Assembly (NCBI GenBank): GCA_025463785.1
Contig: JAODBD010000009.1
Span: 124,001 to 188,000 of the forward strand
Length of the DNA: 64,000 nt
Source of the DNA: Glaciihabitans sp.
GTDB lineage: Bacteria; Actinomycetota; Actinomycetes; Actinomycetales; Microbacteriaceae
Direction: 5' to 3'
In this document: positions 8,139-13,143 of the stretch, in pieces
How the letters are laid out: every line of letters begins with the position of its first letter
How positions within the stretch are numbered: position 1 is the stretch's first letter
The notes under the pieces: generated by a model
Database searches by the model: none
Seen by the model: the letters and a program-made list of their open reading frames with translations, nothing else
What the model was told of the DNA's origin: nothing
Translations under genes and position numbers: made by a program

Positions 8139-8744
8139 CTACTTCTTGGCGCTCAATTGCTCGATGATCGCCTGCGCGACGTCGTGCATGGTGAGCCGGC
8201 GGTCCATGGATGCCTTCTGAATCCAGCGGAATGCCTCGGGCTCGGTAAGCCCCATTTTTTCATTGAGCAGGCCCTTGGCACGGTCAACCAGCTTGCGCGT
8301 TTCAAACCTCTCGACCAGGTCGCTGACCTCGGCCTCAAGCGTAATGATCTGGGCATATCGGGCGAGAGCGATCTCGATCGCGGGCAGTAGGTCGTTCGGC
8401 GTGAACGGTTTGACGACGTACGCAAGCGCGCCCGCCTCGCTCGCTCGCTCGACCAGTTCCTTCTGGCTGAATGCCGTCAGGAGGACGACGGGTGCAATGT
8501 GGTTCTTCGTGAGGCGCTCTGCGGCCGAAATGCCGTCGAGCTGGGGCATCTTGACATCCATGATGACAAGGTCCGGGCGAAGCTCGGTAGCGAGGGCCAC
8601 CGCGGTCTCGCCGTCGGCAGCTTCACCCACAACTTCGAAGCCGTTGTCACGGAGTGTCTCGACGATATCCATACGAATCAGAGACTCGTCCTCCGCAACG
8701 ACAACGCGACGGGGTGCCTGCGGGGCTGTTTCCTGCTCACTCAC
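8139..8744 (-). CDS. pdtaR: ANTAR-domain response regulator (PdtaR-like antiterminator)
   Basis: 201 residues: a receiver domain (residues 13-130, acidic pocket EDES at 18-21, phosphoacceptor Asp63 in IMDVKMPQ, Lys in VVKPF), a short coiled-coil linker, and a C-terminal ANTAR domain (about 137-198, with DRAKGLLNEKMGLTEPEAFRWI). ANTAR regulators bind paired RNA hexaloops and stop transcription termination or block ribosome binding. The mycobacterial homologue is activated by the histidine kinase PdtaS, which is not encoded nearby here. The start ATG is 40 bp from the divergent tRNA-Leu gene, so the two share one short promoter region. Confidence 0.9.
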   Translation of the reverse strand: MSEQETAPQAPRRVVVAEDESLIRMDIVETLRDNGFEVVGEAADGETAVALATELRPDLVIMDVKMPQLDGISAAERLTKNHIAPVVLLTAFSQKELVERASEAGALAYVVKPFTPNDLLPAIEIALARYAQIITLEAEVSDLVERFETRKLVDRAKGLLNEKMGLTEPEAFRWIQKASMDRRLTMHDVAQAIIEQLSAKK

Positions 8745-8756
8745 GGTCCAACCCTA

Positions 8757-8871
8757 CGGTATTGTTTCCCACGTTGTTGTGCGCGCCGGATTGGCGGAAT
8801 GGCAGACGCGGAGCACTCAAAATGCTTTGTTCGAAAGGACGTGTGGGTTCAAGTCCCACATCCGGCACAAC
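8757..8871 (+). repeat. 115-bp direct repeat, copy 1 (contains tRNA-Leu)
   Basis: This segment is identical base for base to 11301-11415. It holds 28 bp of upstream sequence, the whole 83-nt tRNA-Leu gene and four following bases. The sequence diverges abruptly on both sides. The two copies are in the same orientation and bracket the secreted repeat-protein gene. Confidence 0.97.
8785..8867 (+). tRNA. tRNA-Leu (anticodon CAA), copy 1
   Basis: A complete 83-nt cloverleaf folds by eye: acceptor stem GCCGGAT/ATCCGGC, anticodon stem GAGCA/TGCTT around the loop CTCAAAA (anticodon CAA, reading UUG), a long class II variable arm (GTTC/GGAC), T-stem GTGGG/CCCAC around TTCAAGT, and discriminator A. 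The terminal CCA is not encoded. A second identical gene lies at 11329-11411. Confidence 0.97.
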
Positions 8872-8943
8872 GTCCCGGCGCGGTTTGAACAAAGTGTGGG
8901 CATTCGGCTGTGCTCGTCTCAGGCTTCCGGTCGCGCAAGCCCT

Positions 8944-8956
8944 GCCGGTCACCGGC
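8944..8956. terminator. 13-nt perfect palindrome downstream of the secreted repeat protein
   Basis: GCCGGT-C-ACCGGC lies 26-38 nt past the stop codon of the secreted protein gene. It may be a short transcription-stop hairpin, but there is no T-run on either side and a one-base loop would open to a shorter stem, so the call is tentative. Confidence 0.3.
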
Positions 8957-8981
8957 ATCGTGCACTAGTTCGAATCCCGAG

Positions 8982-11138
8982 CTAGCTGCTCACCCTGGAC
9001 TTAGACGTTGAGCTCGTCTTGCTGAGGGTCGCATAGCCTACCGCGATGCCCGTCACCTTGACGGTGATTTCCTTGCCCTTGTCCTTGCTCGTGAGCGTGT
9101 ACGAGGGCGTCTTTGCACCCGTAATGGCCTTGCCGTTGCGCAGCCACGTGTAGGTGAATCCCGTGTAGGTCGGCTTCCACGAGCCCACCGTGACCGTGAG
9201 GATATGACCAACCCTGTGCGTTCCCGTGACCTTGGGAGTGACGGAGGTCAAGGTCCCGGTCGCGACTTTCGCGGTGGCATTCGAGATCTCAATCTTTACG
9301 GAATGACCCGCAAGATAGCCTGTAACGGCAACCGTGATCCTCTTGCCCCTGTCCGCTGGTCCCACTCTGTAAGTCGACGCTGCCCCGCCGGGTACCGGAA
9401 TACCATTTGCGCGCCACTGGTAGATGAACTTCACGCCGGTCGGCTTCCAGGTACCCGATTTCGCCGTGAGCATCCTGCCGACCTTGACGCTGCCCGAGAT
9501 AGTGGGCTTGGGGGTCGTCTGGAGTGCGGGCAATGCCGCGTTAACAGTCAATGCGCCGGTTGCGATCGGCGACGTGCCGCCCTCGGACTGGACGACGAGC
9601 GTGTGATCTCCGAGAGCAACCTCGCTCCCAATTGCCGTGTGGATGATTCCTCCCGCACCAACCTGCACCCAGCTGCTGCCGAGCTGAGTTGGAGTGGAGT
9701 GCGCCCACGTCGATACCCACGCGCCAGCCAACGACGGATCGACGGTAATAGTTGCTTCGCCGTTCTGATTCACTGTCGTGCCATCCAGCGATGCGCCGCC
9801 ACTGAGCTCGTCATCGGAGAGCGGCGTCGGCGCCGAGGTCGGGGCACCCTCGGAGAGGGTGAAATTCTGACCGTAAAGAAGCTCGCCCGCAGTCACCTGG
9901 ATCGGGATGGCCGAGGTGACAGACGAGCCCCCGCCCGTAAACACGCTCGTGAATTGCGGGTAGTAGCTGGGGTCCGCGACGTAACCGATCTTGTACGAAC
10001 CCGGCGGCATCCCGAACGCGCTGATGTCGCCCGGGCCGCCATTGCCCGCGTATGCGCTCTGAATGACGAACGGCACCCACGAGCCGTCAACGAACTGGTA
10101 GATGGTTGGTCCGGGGGTGTCGTTCGTGGAAAGGTCGACTGACCCGTCGGCGGCAAGCATGGTCACGTGCCCGGTGATCGTCGCTCCGAGCCCAAGGTGG
10201 ATGTTCTCGGTCGCTATTCCGCCGTCCGTGATGTCGAACGTCGTCGCATCCTGAATCGCGGCAGCGCGGCCTAGGTAGAGCGCTTCGTATGAGGGATTTC
10301 GTAGTTGTGGTTCCGCGTCGAAGAAGCTGAGCGTGGCGTTCGTCGTCGTGGCGACATTGGGGATCGTATAGTTACCGTCTGCGTCCGTTTCCCCCTGCCC
10401 AAGCCCACCGTACGGAGCCGTGCTGAGCACGCTGACCGCGATGTGGTTGATGCCATGTCCTGAGGAATCGGTCACGCGGCCGGTGACCGTTCCCACCGGC
10501 TGCACGGCGAGGCTGAAGTCCTCTTCCGGCGTCGAGTTCGCGGCAAGATCGACCTCACGAGTCTGTGGGATGTAACCCACCGCACTCGCATACAGCGTGT
10601 AGGAGCCCGCGGCCAATCCGGTAATCGTGAACGTCTTGCCATCCGGATCGAAGCTCGTGACGGCTCCGGATGTGCTGCCAACCTTGCTCGCGAACACCTG
10701 AGGGTTCGACAGCACTTCACCGCTCGGCCCCGTGACAGTACCCGTGAATCCGCTGTTCGCGGGAAGCAGCGAGATGCTCGGACGCACGATAGTAATCGAA
10801 TCGACCACGATCGAATCCCCCGGAGCCGTGTAGCCATCGAGCGATGCGAACACCGTGTAGGGGCCGAACGGGACGTTGTCGAACTCGTAGCTGCCGTCCA
10901 CGCCGGTGCTACCACCGGCCGCGCCCACCAAATTTATCCCGCTGAGCTCAACACCAACATTTGCTAGCGGGGAGTCTGAGTTCGACCCATCGGTGACCGT
11001 CACGACGACCGTACCGCTCCCCGCTGCGAGGGCAGGTGCCGCCGCGAGCCCACCGGCGACCCACACCGTTGCGGTCGCTAGCGCGACGAGAGCGAGTAGG
11101 CGGCGGCGAGGACGAGGCGAATCGGTGCGAAGGCTCAT
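8982..11138 (-). CDS. Secreted multi-domain repeat protein with carboxypeptidase-regulatory and Ig-like repeats
   Basis: 718 residues with a clear Sec signal peptide (RPRRR, a hydrophobic core, cleavage likely after APALAA at about residue 39). The first two thirds hold several CNA-B/carboxypeptidase-regulatory-like beta-sandwich units (for example GSYEFDNVPFGPYTVFASLDGY, split here as GSYEFDNVP and FGPYTVFASLDGY, and the similar AAGSYTLYASAVGY). The C-terminal 160 residues are two tandem Ig-like repeats with the shared pattern VG..LT...G.WKPT...F.Y.W..NG. There is no LPxTG sorting motif and no C-terminal membrane helix, so it is probably released or held non-covalently. It lies alone between two identical tRNA-Leu repeats. 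Function unknown; adhesion or envelope roles are typical for such architectures. Confidence 0.85.
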   Translation of the reverse strand: MSLRTDSPRPRRRLLALVALATATVWVAGGLAAAPALAAGSGTVVVTVTDGSNSDSPLANVGVELSGINLVGAAGGSTGVDGSYEFDNVPFGPYTVFASLDGYTAPGDSIVVDSITIVRPSISLLPANSGFTGTVTGPSGEVLSNPQVFASKVGSTSGAVTSFDPDGKTFTITGLAAGSYTLYASAVGYIPQTREVDLAANSTPEEDFSLAVQPVGTVTGRVTDSSGHGINHIAVSVLSTAPYGGLGQGETDADGNYTIPNVATTTNATLSFFDAEPQLRNPSYEALYLGRAAAIQDATTFDITDGGIATENIHLGLGATITGHVTMLAADGSVDLSTNDTPGPTIYQFVDGSWVPFVIQSAYAGNGGPGDISAFGMPPGSYKIGYVADPSYYPQFTSVFTGGGSSVTSAIPIQVTAGELLYGQNFTLSEGAPTSAPTPLSDDELSGGASLDGTTVNQNGEATITVDPSLAGAWVSTWAHSTPTQLGSSWVQVGAGGIIHTAIGSEVALGDHTLVVQSEGGTSPIATGALTVNAALPALQTTPKPTISGSVKVGRMLTAKSGTWKPTGVKFIYQWRANGIPVPGGAASTYRVGPADRGKRITVAVTGYLAGHSVKIEISNATAKVATGTLTSVTPKVTGTHRVGHILTVTVGSWKPTYTGFTYTWLRNGKAITGAKTPSYTLTSKDKGKEITVKVTGIAVGYATLSKTSSTSKSRVSS

Positions 11139-11222
11139 GGGACGTCCCTAAGTAGTGCATTCGAGTTGCTACACCATAACAGTCGAATCAGTTTCAGTTA
11201 CGGCAAAGTAATCAGAGCTACG

Positions 11223-11239
11223 GCCCCCAATATGGGGGC
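11223..11239. promoter_or_regulatory. 17-nt inverted repeat upstream of the secreted protein gene, candidate operator
   Basis: GCCCCCA-ATA-TGGGGGC is a perfect 7+7 inverted repeat about 85 bp upstream of the secreted protein's start. It lies in the gap between the protein gene and the second tRNA-Leu. Its short A/T centre suggests a protein-binding site in the promoter region rather than a terminator. The remaining bases of 11139-11300 show no gene. Confidence 0.4.
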
Positions 11240-11300
11240 AACGCCTAATCCCGTTTGCCCTCGGGCGACCAGCTCATAGTCGGTGCCGGCCGATCACCCG

Positions 11301-11415
11301 CGGTATTGTTTCCCACGTTGTTGTGCGCGCCGGATTGGCGGAATGGCAGACGCGGAGCACTCAAAATGCTTTGTTCGAAAGGACGTGTGGGTTCAAGTCC
11401 CACATCCGGCACAAC
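11301..11415 (+). repeat. 115-bp direct repeat, copy 2 (contains tRNA-Leu)
   Basis: Identical over all 115 bases to 8757-8871, same orientation, with unrelated flanks. The two copies are 2,429 bp apart. Confidence 0.97.
11329..11411 (+). tRNA. tRNA-Leu (anticodon CAA), copy 2
   Basis: Same 83 bases as the gene at 8785-8867, with intact acceptor, anticodon, variable and T arms. It carries the same 28 bp of 5' flank, so it may be expressed from the same promoter elements. Nothing in it looks degraded. Confidence 0.97.
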
Positions 11416-11697
11416 CTGGGAGTCGCACCTTCTGCGCGCCCGCATCCCCCCACAACCGGCTGATAGTCAGAATGCGGCATGTCGCCGACTATGAAGGCAG
11501 GGAAGCGCACCGGTCGCTGCCCGTCCAGCTCGTCCACGACGAGGCGGCGTGCCAAATACCGCAGGCAGCGCAGGTCGTGACAGAAGAAGTCCACGTCTGC
11601 CAAACCGGGAGGGTGACGAAACGACGAGAGACACCCTAAGTTGCCCAAAATTAGACAACCCGGATGCCTCTCGCCATAAGATCCGCGGAAATTCTCG
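11416..11697. other. Intergenic stretch without a recognised gene
   Basis: Between the second tRNA-Leu and the end of pyk I see no confident gene. One minus-strand frame stays open throughout and contains protein-like segments such as DFFCHDLRCLRYLARRLVVD and PVRFPAFIVGDMPHSD, but it lacks a credible start and runs on into pyk in another frame. It could be a decayed gene. Confidence 0.4.
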
Positions 11698-13143
11698 CTA
11701 CGTGCTGGCCCACACCGGCGCGGCCGCGTTCTGCGCATCGCCAACAACATGAACGCGAAGGTCGTTCGTGGAACCCGAGATCCCGGGAGGGGACCCGGAG
11801 ATGACGACGACCTTGTCGCCGATCTCCGCCAGCCCTTCACCGAGCAGCACCTCATCGACCTGGTGGTACATCGCATCGGTGTGGGTGACGCGGTCTACCA
11901 CGAACGACTCGATGCCCCAGTACAGCGACATCCTGCGACGAATCGCAGGATCCGGAGTAAACGCCTTCATCGGCACGCGGTATCGAAGTCGCGACATGCG
12001 TCGAGCTGCGTCCCCGCTCTCAGTGAACACGCACACGTACTTCGCATCGACGAAATCAGCAACCTCGGCGGCAGCCAGGGTGAGGGCGCCACCCTGGGTG
12101 CGCGGCTTGGTGCCGAGTGGGGGGATGCGCTCCAACCCGTGATCCTCCGTGGACTCGACGATGCGCGCCATGGTCTGAACCGTGATCACGGGATATGCGC
12201 CAACGCTGGTCTCGCCGCTCAGCATGACCGCATCGGCACCATCGAGAACCGCGTTCGCGACATCCGATGTCTCGGCGCGCGTAGGAACGGGAGACGAGAT
12301 CATGGACTCGAGCATCTGCGTCGCTACGATGACGGGCTTGGCCATGCGACGAGCGAGCTCGACCGCCCGCTTTTGAACGATCGGCACCGCCTCAAGTGGA
12401 AGCTCGACGCCGAGGTCGCCGCGGGCGACCATGATCGAGTCGAACGCGTCGATGATCTCTTCCAGGTTGTCGACGGCCTGCGGCTTCTCGATCTTGGCGA
12501 TAACGGGGATCTTGCGGCCCTCCTCAGCCATAATCTCGTGGACACGGGAGATATCCGAAGCGTCACGGACGAAGGACAGCGCGATGAGGTCGGCGCCAAG
12601 CCGGAGGCCCCAACGGAGGTCTGCCTCATCTTTTTCCGACAGCGCGGGCACGTTGACGGCGACGCCCGGCAGATTGATTCCCTTGTTGTTCGAGACCGGG
12701 CCGGCAACGATGACCTCGGTCGTCACAACGGTGCCGTCAGTCTCGAGAACCTTGACCTTGACCTTGCCGTCATCAATCAGCAAGAAGTCTCCGGGAGACA
12801 CATCCTGAGGCAATCCCTTGAATGTGGTGCCCGAGAGTTCCTTCGTGCCGATGACTTCTTCGGTTGTGATCTTGAAGATGTCGCCGACGGCAAGCTCGTA
12901 CGGGCCAGCTTCGAACTTGCCGAGCCGAATCTTCGGGCCCTGCAGATCAACCATGATCGCGACCGCGCGACCGGAATCCTCGGCGGCCTTGCGAACGTTC
13001 TTGTAAACCTCTTCGTGTACGTCGTACGTACCGTGACTGAGATTCATGCGGGCGACGTCAACACCTGCCTCGATAATCGCCCTGATGTTTTCGTAGCTCG
13101 ACGTGGCTGGGCCTAGCGTCGCGACGATTTTGGCTCGTCTCAT
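11698..13143 (-). CDS. pyk: Pyruvate kinase
   Basis: 481 residues covering the full pyruvate kinase fold. The N-terminus [13 protein letters not shown] with ARMNLSHG forms the ADP and phosphate site. The catalytic Lys and metal-binding Glu are in [11 protein letters not shown], followed by [15 protein letters not shown] and ATQMLESM. The C-terminal regulatory domain ends near VHVVGD. The enzyme makes pyruvate and ATP from phosphoenolpyruvate. The ATG at 13141-13143 has an AAGGA site. It follows gltD by 51 bp, a gap that holds a tandem 10-mer (13162-13182), so it may have its own promoter. Confidence 0.96.

Follow-up and report, generated by a model that had tools for sequence, protein, structure and literature searches.

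In a 64,000-nt stretch of the genome of a Glaciihabitans sp. (positions 124,001 to 188,000 of contig JAODBD010000009.1; hereafter the window), two identical copies of a 115-bp unit, each holding a complete gene for transfer RNA (tRNA)-Leu(CAA) with its leader, enclose one gene for a secreted-type protein. We conclude that the locus is probably a single-gene islet, specific to this lineage, that arrived together with a duplication of the whole tRNA unit. The unusual feature is that the duplicated sequence is a complete tRNA with its leader, not a 3′ fragment. A sequence-only reading of the region had described two identical 115-bp repeats, each with a complete tRNA-Leu(CAA) and its 5′ flank, around one secreted-type gene, and this description is confirmed by a repeat search, ARAGORN and Rfam.

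The direct repeats lie at positions 8757–8871 (copy 1, beside a response-regulator gene) and 11301–11415 (copy 2), both on the + strand, and a repeat search of the window found them to be 100% identical over 115 nt. Each consists of a 28-bp leader, the 84-nt tRNA-Leu(CAA) and a further 3 bp, with identity between the copies stopping 28 bp 5′ and 3 bp 3′ of each tRNA. They form the sole direct-repeat family of at least 60 nt reported across the window, and chance was ruled out as their origin, an exact 115-bp repeat being far beyond chance expectation. ARAGORN places the tRNAs at 8785–8868 and 11329–11412, each on the + strand, and both score 56.3 bits against the Rfam RF00005 gathering score of 29; both look intact. 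A check of tRNA-Leu(CAA) copy number, which the sequence-only reading had proposed, gave two copies: the 50 tRNA calls in the genome represent 49 distinct sequences, and the tRNA-Leu(CAA) pair is the only identical one.

Relatives carry a single tRNA at this site. We compared 80 loci, the best 80 of 580 confirmed response-regulator loci from related-genome contigs, and found exactly one tRNA-Leu(CAA) in 80/80; the same holds for each of the five further genus members compared (in G003, the tRNA and the pyruvate kinase gene pyk are on separate contigs, such that the interval between them is not seen whole). Thus, the state with one tRNA and without the gene, for which the sequence-only reading had suggested looking, is what the relatives show, rather than both copies and the same gene in all of them, the pattern it had named as contradicting its interpretation. 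A wider survey covered 398 family genomes (own included), with two candidates scored in each; at E ≤ 1e-9, 368 gave a match, the 30 without one giving no copy-number information, and 13 gave more than one. When the 12 other multi-match genomes were searched again, together with two single-copy controls, no pair of complete copies lay near each other on the same contig. The extra matches were partial copies, diverged leucine tRNAs, a contig overlap in G073 and, in G376, a match on another contig of a draft genome contaminated at 6%. In G073, contigs C86 and C8 (L194, L195) overlap by exactly 127 bp spanning tRNA-Leu(CAA), much like a branch in an assembly graph, an overlap that may stem from differences between strains at this site.

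The stretch matching the 115-bp unit is 89–96% identical in G001, G002, G003 and G005, and 77% identical over 66 bp in G004. Perfect identity of the two copies had earlier been taken to indicate a recent event or ongoing gene conversion. Recency is plausible, given this divergence in the genus; conversion is indistinguishable from youth when there are two identical copies. Orientation also varies among the relatives: in 20 of the 80 loci the tRNA-Leu(CAA) is inverted relative to the response regulator, as it is in G004 (Galbitalea soli; L149:4844-4926, L061), where the sequence has also diverged.

The upstream edges of the repeats distinguish the two copies. A TACGGTA motif upstream of the tRNA is kept in relatives (29 of the 30 rows printed, from 60 same-orientation loci). 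At copy 1 the edge reads CCTACGGTATTG, and the conserved motif runs across it unbroken; at copy 2 the edge reads CCCGCGGTATTG, and just outside the repeat the conserved CCTA has become CCCG. Because the conserved edge is intact at copy 1 and broken at copy 2, copy 1, which adjoins the response regulator, is by this comparison in the ancestral position. Given that the leader of copy 2 retains TATTGT and the remaining leader sequence, copy 2 may also be transcribed.

Across the Microbacteriaceae, the interval separating tRNA-Leu(CAA) from pyk is variable, with the tRNA itself conserved (80/80). In the 53 of 80 loci with both genes in view, the tRNA–pyk distance ranges from 61 to 5194 bp, being at most 400 bp in 22 and greater than 400 bp in 31; among the remaining 27 loci, 22 have at least 5.7 kb lacking a pyk match on that side and five are too short. 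Within the genus, the interval measures ~0.26 kb in G005, 1 kb in G004, 3.2 kb in G002 and 4.7 kb in G001, and its open reading frames (ORFs) differ; G003 and G004 each have an interval gene with a GmrSD_C match. Intervals longer than 300 bp hold 187 ORFs of at least 90 aa, of which 156 are at least 125 aa, and 149 of these were scanned. The families found by Pfam are ordinary metabolic and regulatory kinds, among the 25 shown of 71. There is no integrase among the 25 families shown of 71 (Pfam) or of 36 (PHROGs), a census that does not by itself exclude one.

One gene was judged coding between the repeats, at 8982–11138 on the − strand in the ORF list, encoding 718 aa (hereafter the cargo). 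Shorter ORFs antisense to it exist, and the domain scan covered the cargo ORF itself. The protein has three CarboxypepD_reg stretches (Pfam PF13620, 1.7e-24) and, judged by eye, a Sec-type signal-peptide-like stretch at its N-terminus and two immunoglobulin-like (Ig-like) repeats at its C-terminus; the latter are the source of most matches in relatives. For the N-terminal 440 aa, the own genome gave the sole match at E ≤ 1e-12 in searches of 299 genomes of the family and 394 of the class, two samples that overlap. At looser cut-offs, related domains occur in 22 of 40 genomes (own included), mainly via the C-terminal repeats. At the DNA level, the cargo has no match in the genus regions or the 80 loci at E ≤ 0.01, and no second copy in its own genome, bar a 44-bp match at 84%. 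Its synonymous-codon distance is 2.22, which none of 35 other window ORFs of at least 250 aa exceeds, and CTG accounts for 5 of its 48 leucine codons compared to 600 of 1676 in the window (p = 1.6e-4). Note that the codon control set was chosen automatically (41 window ORFs for the leucine counts) and possibly includes antisense frames. These data suggest that the cargo is likely of lateral origin, probably from outside the genus.

Several more specific identities for the cargo found no support. A defence role is not indicated, there being no PADLOC match at E ≤ 0.1; a search of Protein Data Bank (PDB) sequences gave no match at E ≤ 1, and NCBIfam gave only matches far below the cut-offs. In each of the 20 phage records found, the match is confined to the C-terminal repeats. 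Among the 20 listed of 39 plasmid records, just three Priestia plasmids match the N-terminal part (29%), and none of eight pattern stretches in viral contigs was confirmed for the cargo. A viral or plasmid cargo was rejected on the records listed: matches are mainly to the C-terminal repeats, and the best places are all <60% identical, none covering 80%. The idea that the extra tRNA is supplied for cargo codons is likewise unsupported, TTG making up 6 of 48 leucine codons in the cargo versus 138 of 1676 in the window (p = 0.29); in nine hand-picked genes, the raw count of TTG is 27 of 508.

The sequence-only reading had reported no integrase between the repeats, and our searches of that segment and of the flanks covered gave none either. 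Of the seven integrase matches in the own genome, six were used as queries; with positive controls working, they gave no integrase-like match (E ≤ 0.01) in the window, in any of the 80 loci or in the two genus loci covered. Contig C12 has no PF00589 match; the own-genome integrase matches are all on other contigs. Eight of the 80 loci (L073, L074, L087, L104, L108, L116, L121 and L122) carry, no more than ~150 bp from the intact gene, a direct copy of 14 nt or more of the tRNA 3′ part. Several species of genus g65 (taken as Plantibacter) have head-to-tail 82-bp units after an intact tRNA-Leu(CAA), each unit comprising a 28-bp spacer and ~54 nt of the tRNA 3′ part (L196 and L197, which are G317 and G069; L073 and L074, which share the same leader); g65 genomes G240 and G347 have the intact copy only.

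The explanation we favour is that a secreted-protein gene, probably from outside the genus, came to lie in the variable tRNA-Leu(CAA)–pyk interval, and that the whole tRNA unit, from leader position −28 through the 3′ end, would have been duplicated such that the cargo became bracketed. As the mechanism of origin, in-situ duplication accompanying the insertion ranks first among the alternatives, although we propose it only tentatively. Here, illegitimate insertion by staggered-break repair with end joining, or by template switching, would have used one molecule's own 115 bp. We rank this route first because exact identity and abrupt ends are expected from one molecule's own sequence, and because Ku is present in the genome; the route would need no integrase. 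Recombination or slippage between the repeats, which are 115 bp long and 2.5 kb apart, could delete the gene together with one tRNA. Such a deletion by ordinary recombination would leave one working tRNA, as had been proposed and as holds from the repeat structure, and would restore the single-tRNA state of the relatives. A more ambitious version, in which the 115-bp unit acts by itself, with no integrase, as a cassette border, strikes us as very unlikely; under it, cassettes with a complete tRNA-Leu(CAA) and start signal would be gained, lost and swapped by host recombination, never breaking the cell's only kind of tRNA that reads TTG by exact pairing.

Several observations weigh against an islet of foreign origin that arrived together with the tRNA duplication. 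As a single genome represents the species, any order of tRNA duplication and cargo arrival is tentative. By eye, the junctions show no convincing microhomology, and the repeats end rather neatly on either side of a complete tRNA transcription unit, an outcome not expected from random breakage. The tRNA 3′-part copies seen in eight of the 80 loci are a mark that an integrase could have made. The N-terminal part of the cargo has weak matches in G001, G012, G010 and G018 (E ~1e-6 to 6e-4, 31–36% identity), and among 11 other own-genome ORFs sampled, one has a higher codon distance (2.64) and one a similar distance (2.06). Foreign base composition was rejected as an indicator, since the G+C content of the cargo (0.60–0.64) equals that of its surroundings; the case for foreign origin therefore rests on codon usage and the absence of strong relatives.

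Published systems, considered here from parts of the cited accounts, provide a frame for the alternatives. Islands at tRNA genes normally have an entire tRNA at one border and part of it at the opposite border (PMC3927601). The tRNA islands of Bradyrhizobium japonicum USDA6 likewise combine strain-variable DNA beside a tRNA with a tRNA-derived direct repeat, and include a small integrase-less case, BJ6TGI02, of 2.9 kb with an 18-bp repeat (PMC3927601). In our locus, as in integrase-driven tRNA-inserted genomic islands, the direct repeats at both borders are tRNA-derived; however, the far repeat of the USDA6 islands is a portion of the tRNA, whereas here the repeat is not confined to such a portion and the whole tRNA with its 28-bp leader is present at either border. 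The same applies to the tRNA-targeted cassettes in additive flexible genomic islands of the marine actinobacteria Ca. Actinomarinales (PMC7771536), Alteromonas (PMC4119200) and Methylophilaceae (PMC10872708): a site that varies among relatives beside a conserved tRNA is shared, as is a tRNA repeat at the cassette border, yet in those accounts the repeats are partial (e.g. the last 20 or last 52 nt) and here the copy is complete. Tycheposons are also tRNA-bordered cargo elements, but they carry a tyrosine recombinase, none having been found in the present element, and are 4–200 kb in size (PMC10872708, PMC11389934). The microcin H47 island of E. coli resembles our locus in being recombinase-less with long direct repeats (144–148 bp), and is moved presumably by host functions; it differs in that its repeats are imperfect (76%), it spans 13 kb, and its movement was demonstrated (PMC3191183), whereas our element is known from sequence alone. 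Loss of the sequence between direct repeats was demonstrated in Haloquadratum (PMC3119063) and in Deinococcus, the latter with 438-bp repeats and 1.5–10.5 kb between them (PMC4627823), in contrast to the deletion capacity that we infer here. A literature search returned no case of whole or identical tRNA pairs flanking islands, or of a Microbacteriaceae hotspot, among the matches listed, which is not proof of absence.

The locus could instead be a remnant of, or a satellite to, an integrase-driven element whose attachment site was tRNA-Leu(CAA), with the integrase lost or acting in trans and the two tRNAs corresponding to attL and attR. Consistent with this, eight of the 80 loci have nearby tRNA 3′ copies, genus g65 has serial copies, integrase genes lie next to other tRNAs in the own genome (e.g. 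C9:511785 and 511998), and small integrase-less tRNA islands such as BJ6TGI02 have been published (PMC3927601). However, duplication of a whole gene plus 28-bp leader at both ends is not the usual footprint of a whole tRNA and a portion, and the window, the 80 loci and contig C12 gave none of the integrase matches sought; we consider this origin unlikely. A Campbell-type insertion, in which a circle with the cargo and one 115-bp unit recombined with the chromosomal tRNA, would generate exactly the observed geometry by a single crossover, after which host recombination could exchange tRNA–cargo units among strains. RecA-type recombination is able to use 115 bp. The E. coli island with 144–148-bp repeats both excises and integrates, presumably by host functions (PMC3191183). 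This scenario nonetheless requires a circle whose 115 bp are identical to this lineage, leader included, where four genus members reach only 89–96%. The genome holds no second cargo copy beyond the 44-bp match, no viral contig was confirmed, the phage records described above match in the C-terminal repeats only, and among the plasmid records listed just the three Priestia plasmids match the N-terminal part, at 29%. We judge it to be as improbable as the integrase-driven origin.

Somewhat less probable again is a local tRNA duplication that came first, by chance or for dosage, with the cargo arriving later between copies kept identical by gene conversion. Identical copies fit conversion, and both tRNAs look intact; on the other hand, TTG shows no clear special demand in the cargo, and a tandem pair of whole copies occurs in no examined relative. 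It is extremely improbable that one tRNA copy is an assembly artefact. The genome is a 15-contig draft with an estimated 4.36% contamination, but both copies lie within a 391,724-base contig and have unique flanks, the left being conserved in relatives and the right running on to pyk. Assemblies normally break at a repeat of 115 bp instead of gaining a spurious copy of it.

The sequences around the repeats were also examined. The left anchor is an ANTAR response regulator gene (8139–8744, − strand; Pfam PF00072 and PF03861), a conserved neighbour divergent from the tRNA. The right anchor is pyk (11698–13143, − strand), the orthologue found across the variable interval. Overall, the neighbourhood resembles chromosome core, with polA, the ANTAR response regulator, pyk, gltD, gltB, lgt, trpA and trpB; the response regulator was identified by domain scan and the other genes were named by eye. 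A 110-bp spacer (8872–8981) separating copy 1 from the cargo gene's end has no match to the genus regions or the 80 loci at E ≤ 0.01. The 162-bp region between the cargo start and copy 2 (11139–11300) presumably contains the cargo promoter. Between copy 2 and the end of pyk, a homology search of the 282-bp intergenic stretch (11416–11697) found nothing in relatives except a 24-bp match in L127 (E 0.006), outside the interval. We rejected the right flank as a decayed gene, its antisense ORF (11361–11876) having no Pfam match. A tRNA-like stretch near 8968 was also rejected as an attachment remnant, since it has only 11–12 nt in common with ordinary T-arms and, by eye, lacks T-stem pairing. We also dropped an inverted match of 10 bp that links the right end of the cargo with the right flank (E 0.096 in a tiny search).

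Other tRNA genes in the genome provide further points of comparison. A tRNA-Thr(CGT) lies directly beside an integrase gene (L202, C9:511785-512522), like a classical integrated element. Two tRNA-Ser(GCT) genes (L180:79-168 on C6; L181:2292-2381) differ solely in the variable arm, and the copy on C6 is 2.5 kb from an integrase match. Near contig starts, there are two near-identical tRNA-Pro(TGG) genes and two tRNA-Gly(TCC) genes with different 5′ ends (C11 and C8; L162:206-279, L159:230-302), one of the latter with a mismatched acceptor stem.

We conclude that the locus is a variant of the known tRNA-island theme, with whole-tRNA duplication as the differing feature. The usual explanation of islands bordered by tRNAs invokes integrases and repeats of part of the tRNA. 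A family-wide variable spot with no integrase in view, together with a whole-tRNA case, would help to test what share of gene turnover at tRNA sites is due to ordinary repair and recombination. The locus also shows a route to tRNA gene duplication in a genome where every other tRNA gene is unique in sequence.

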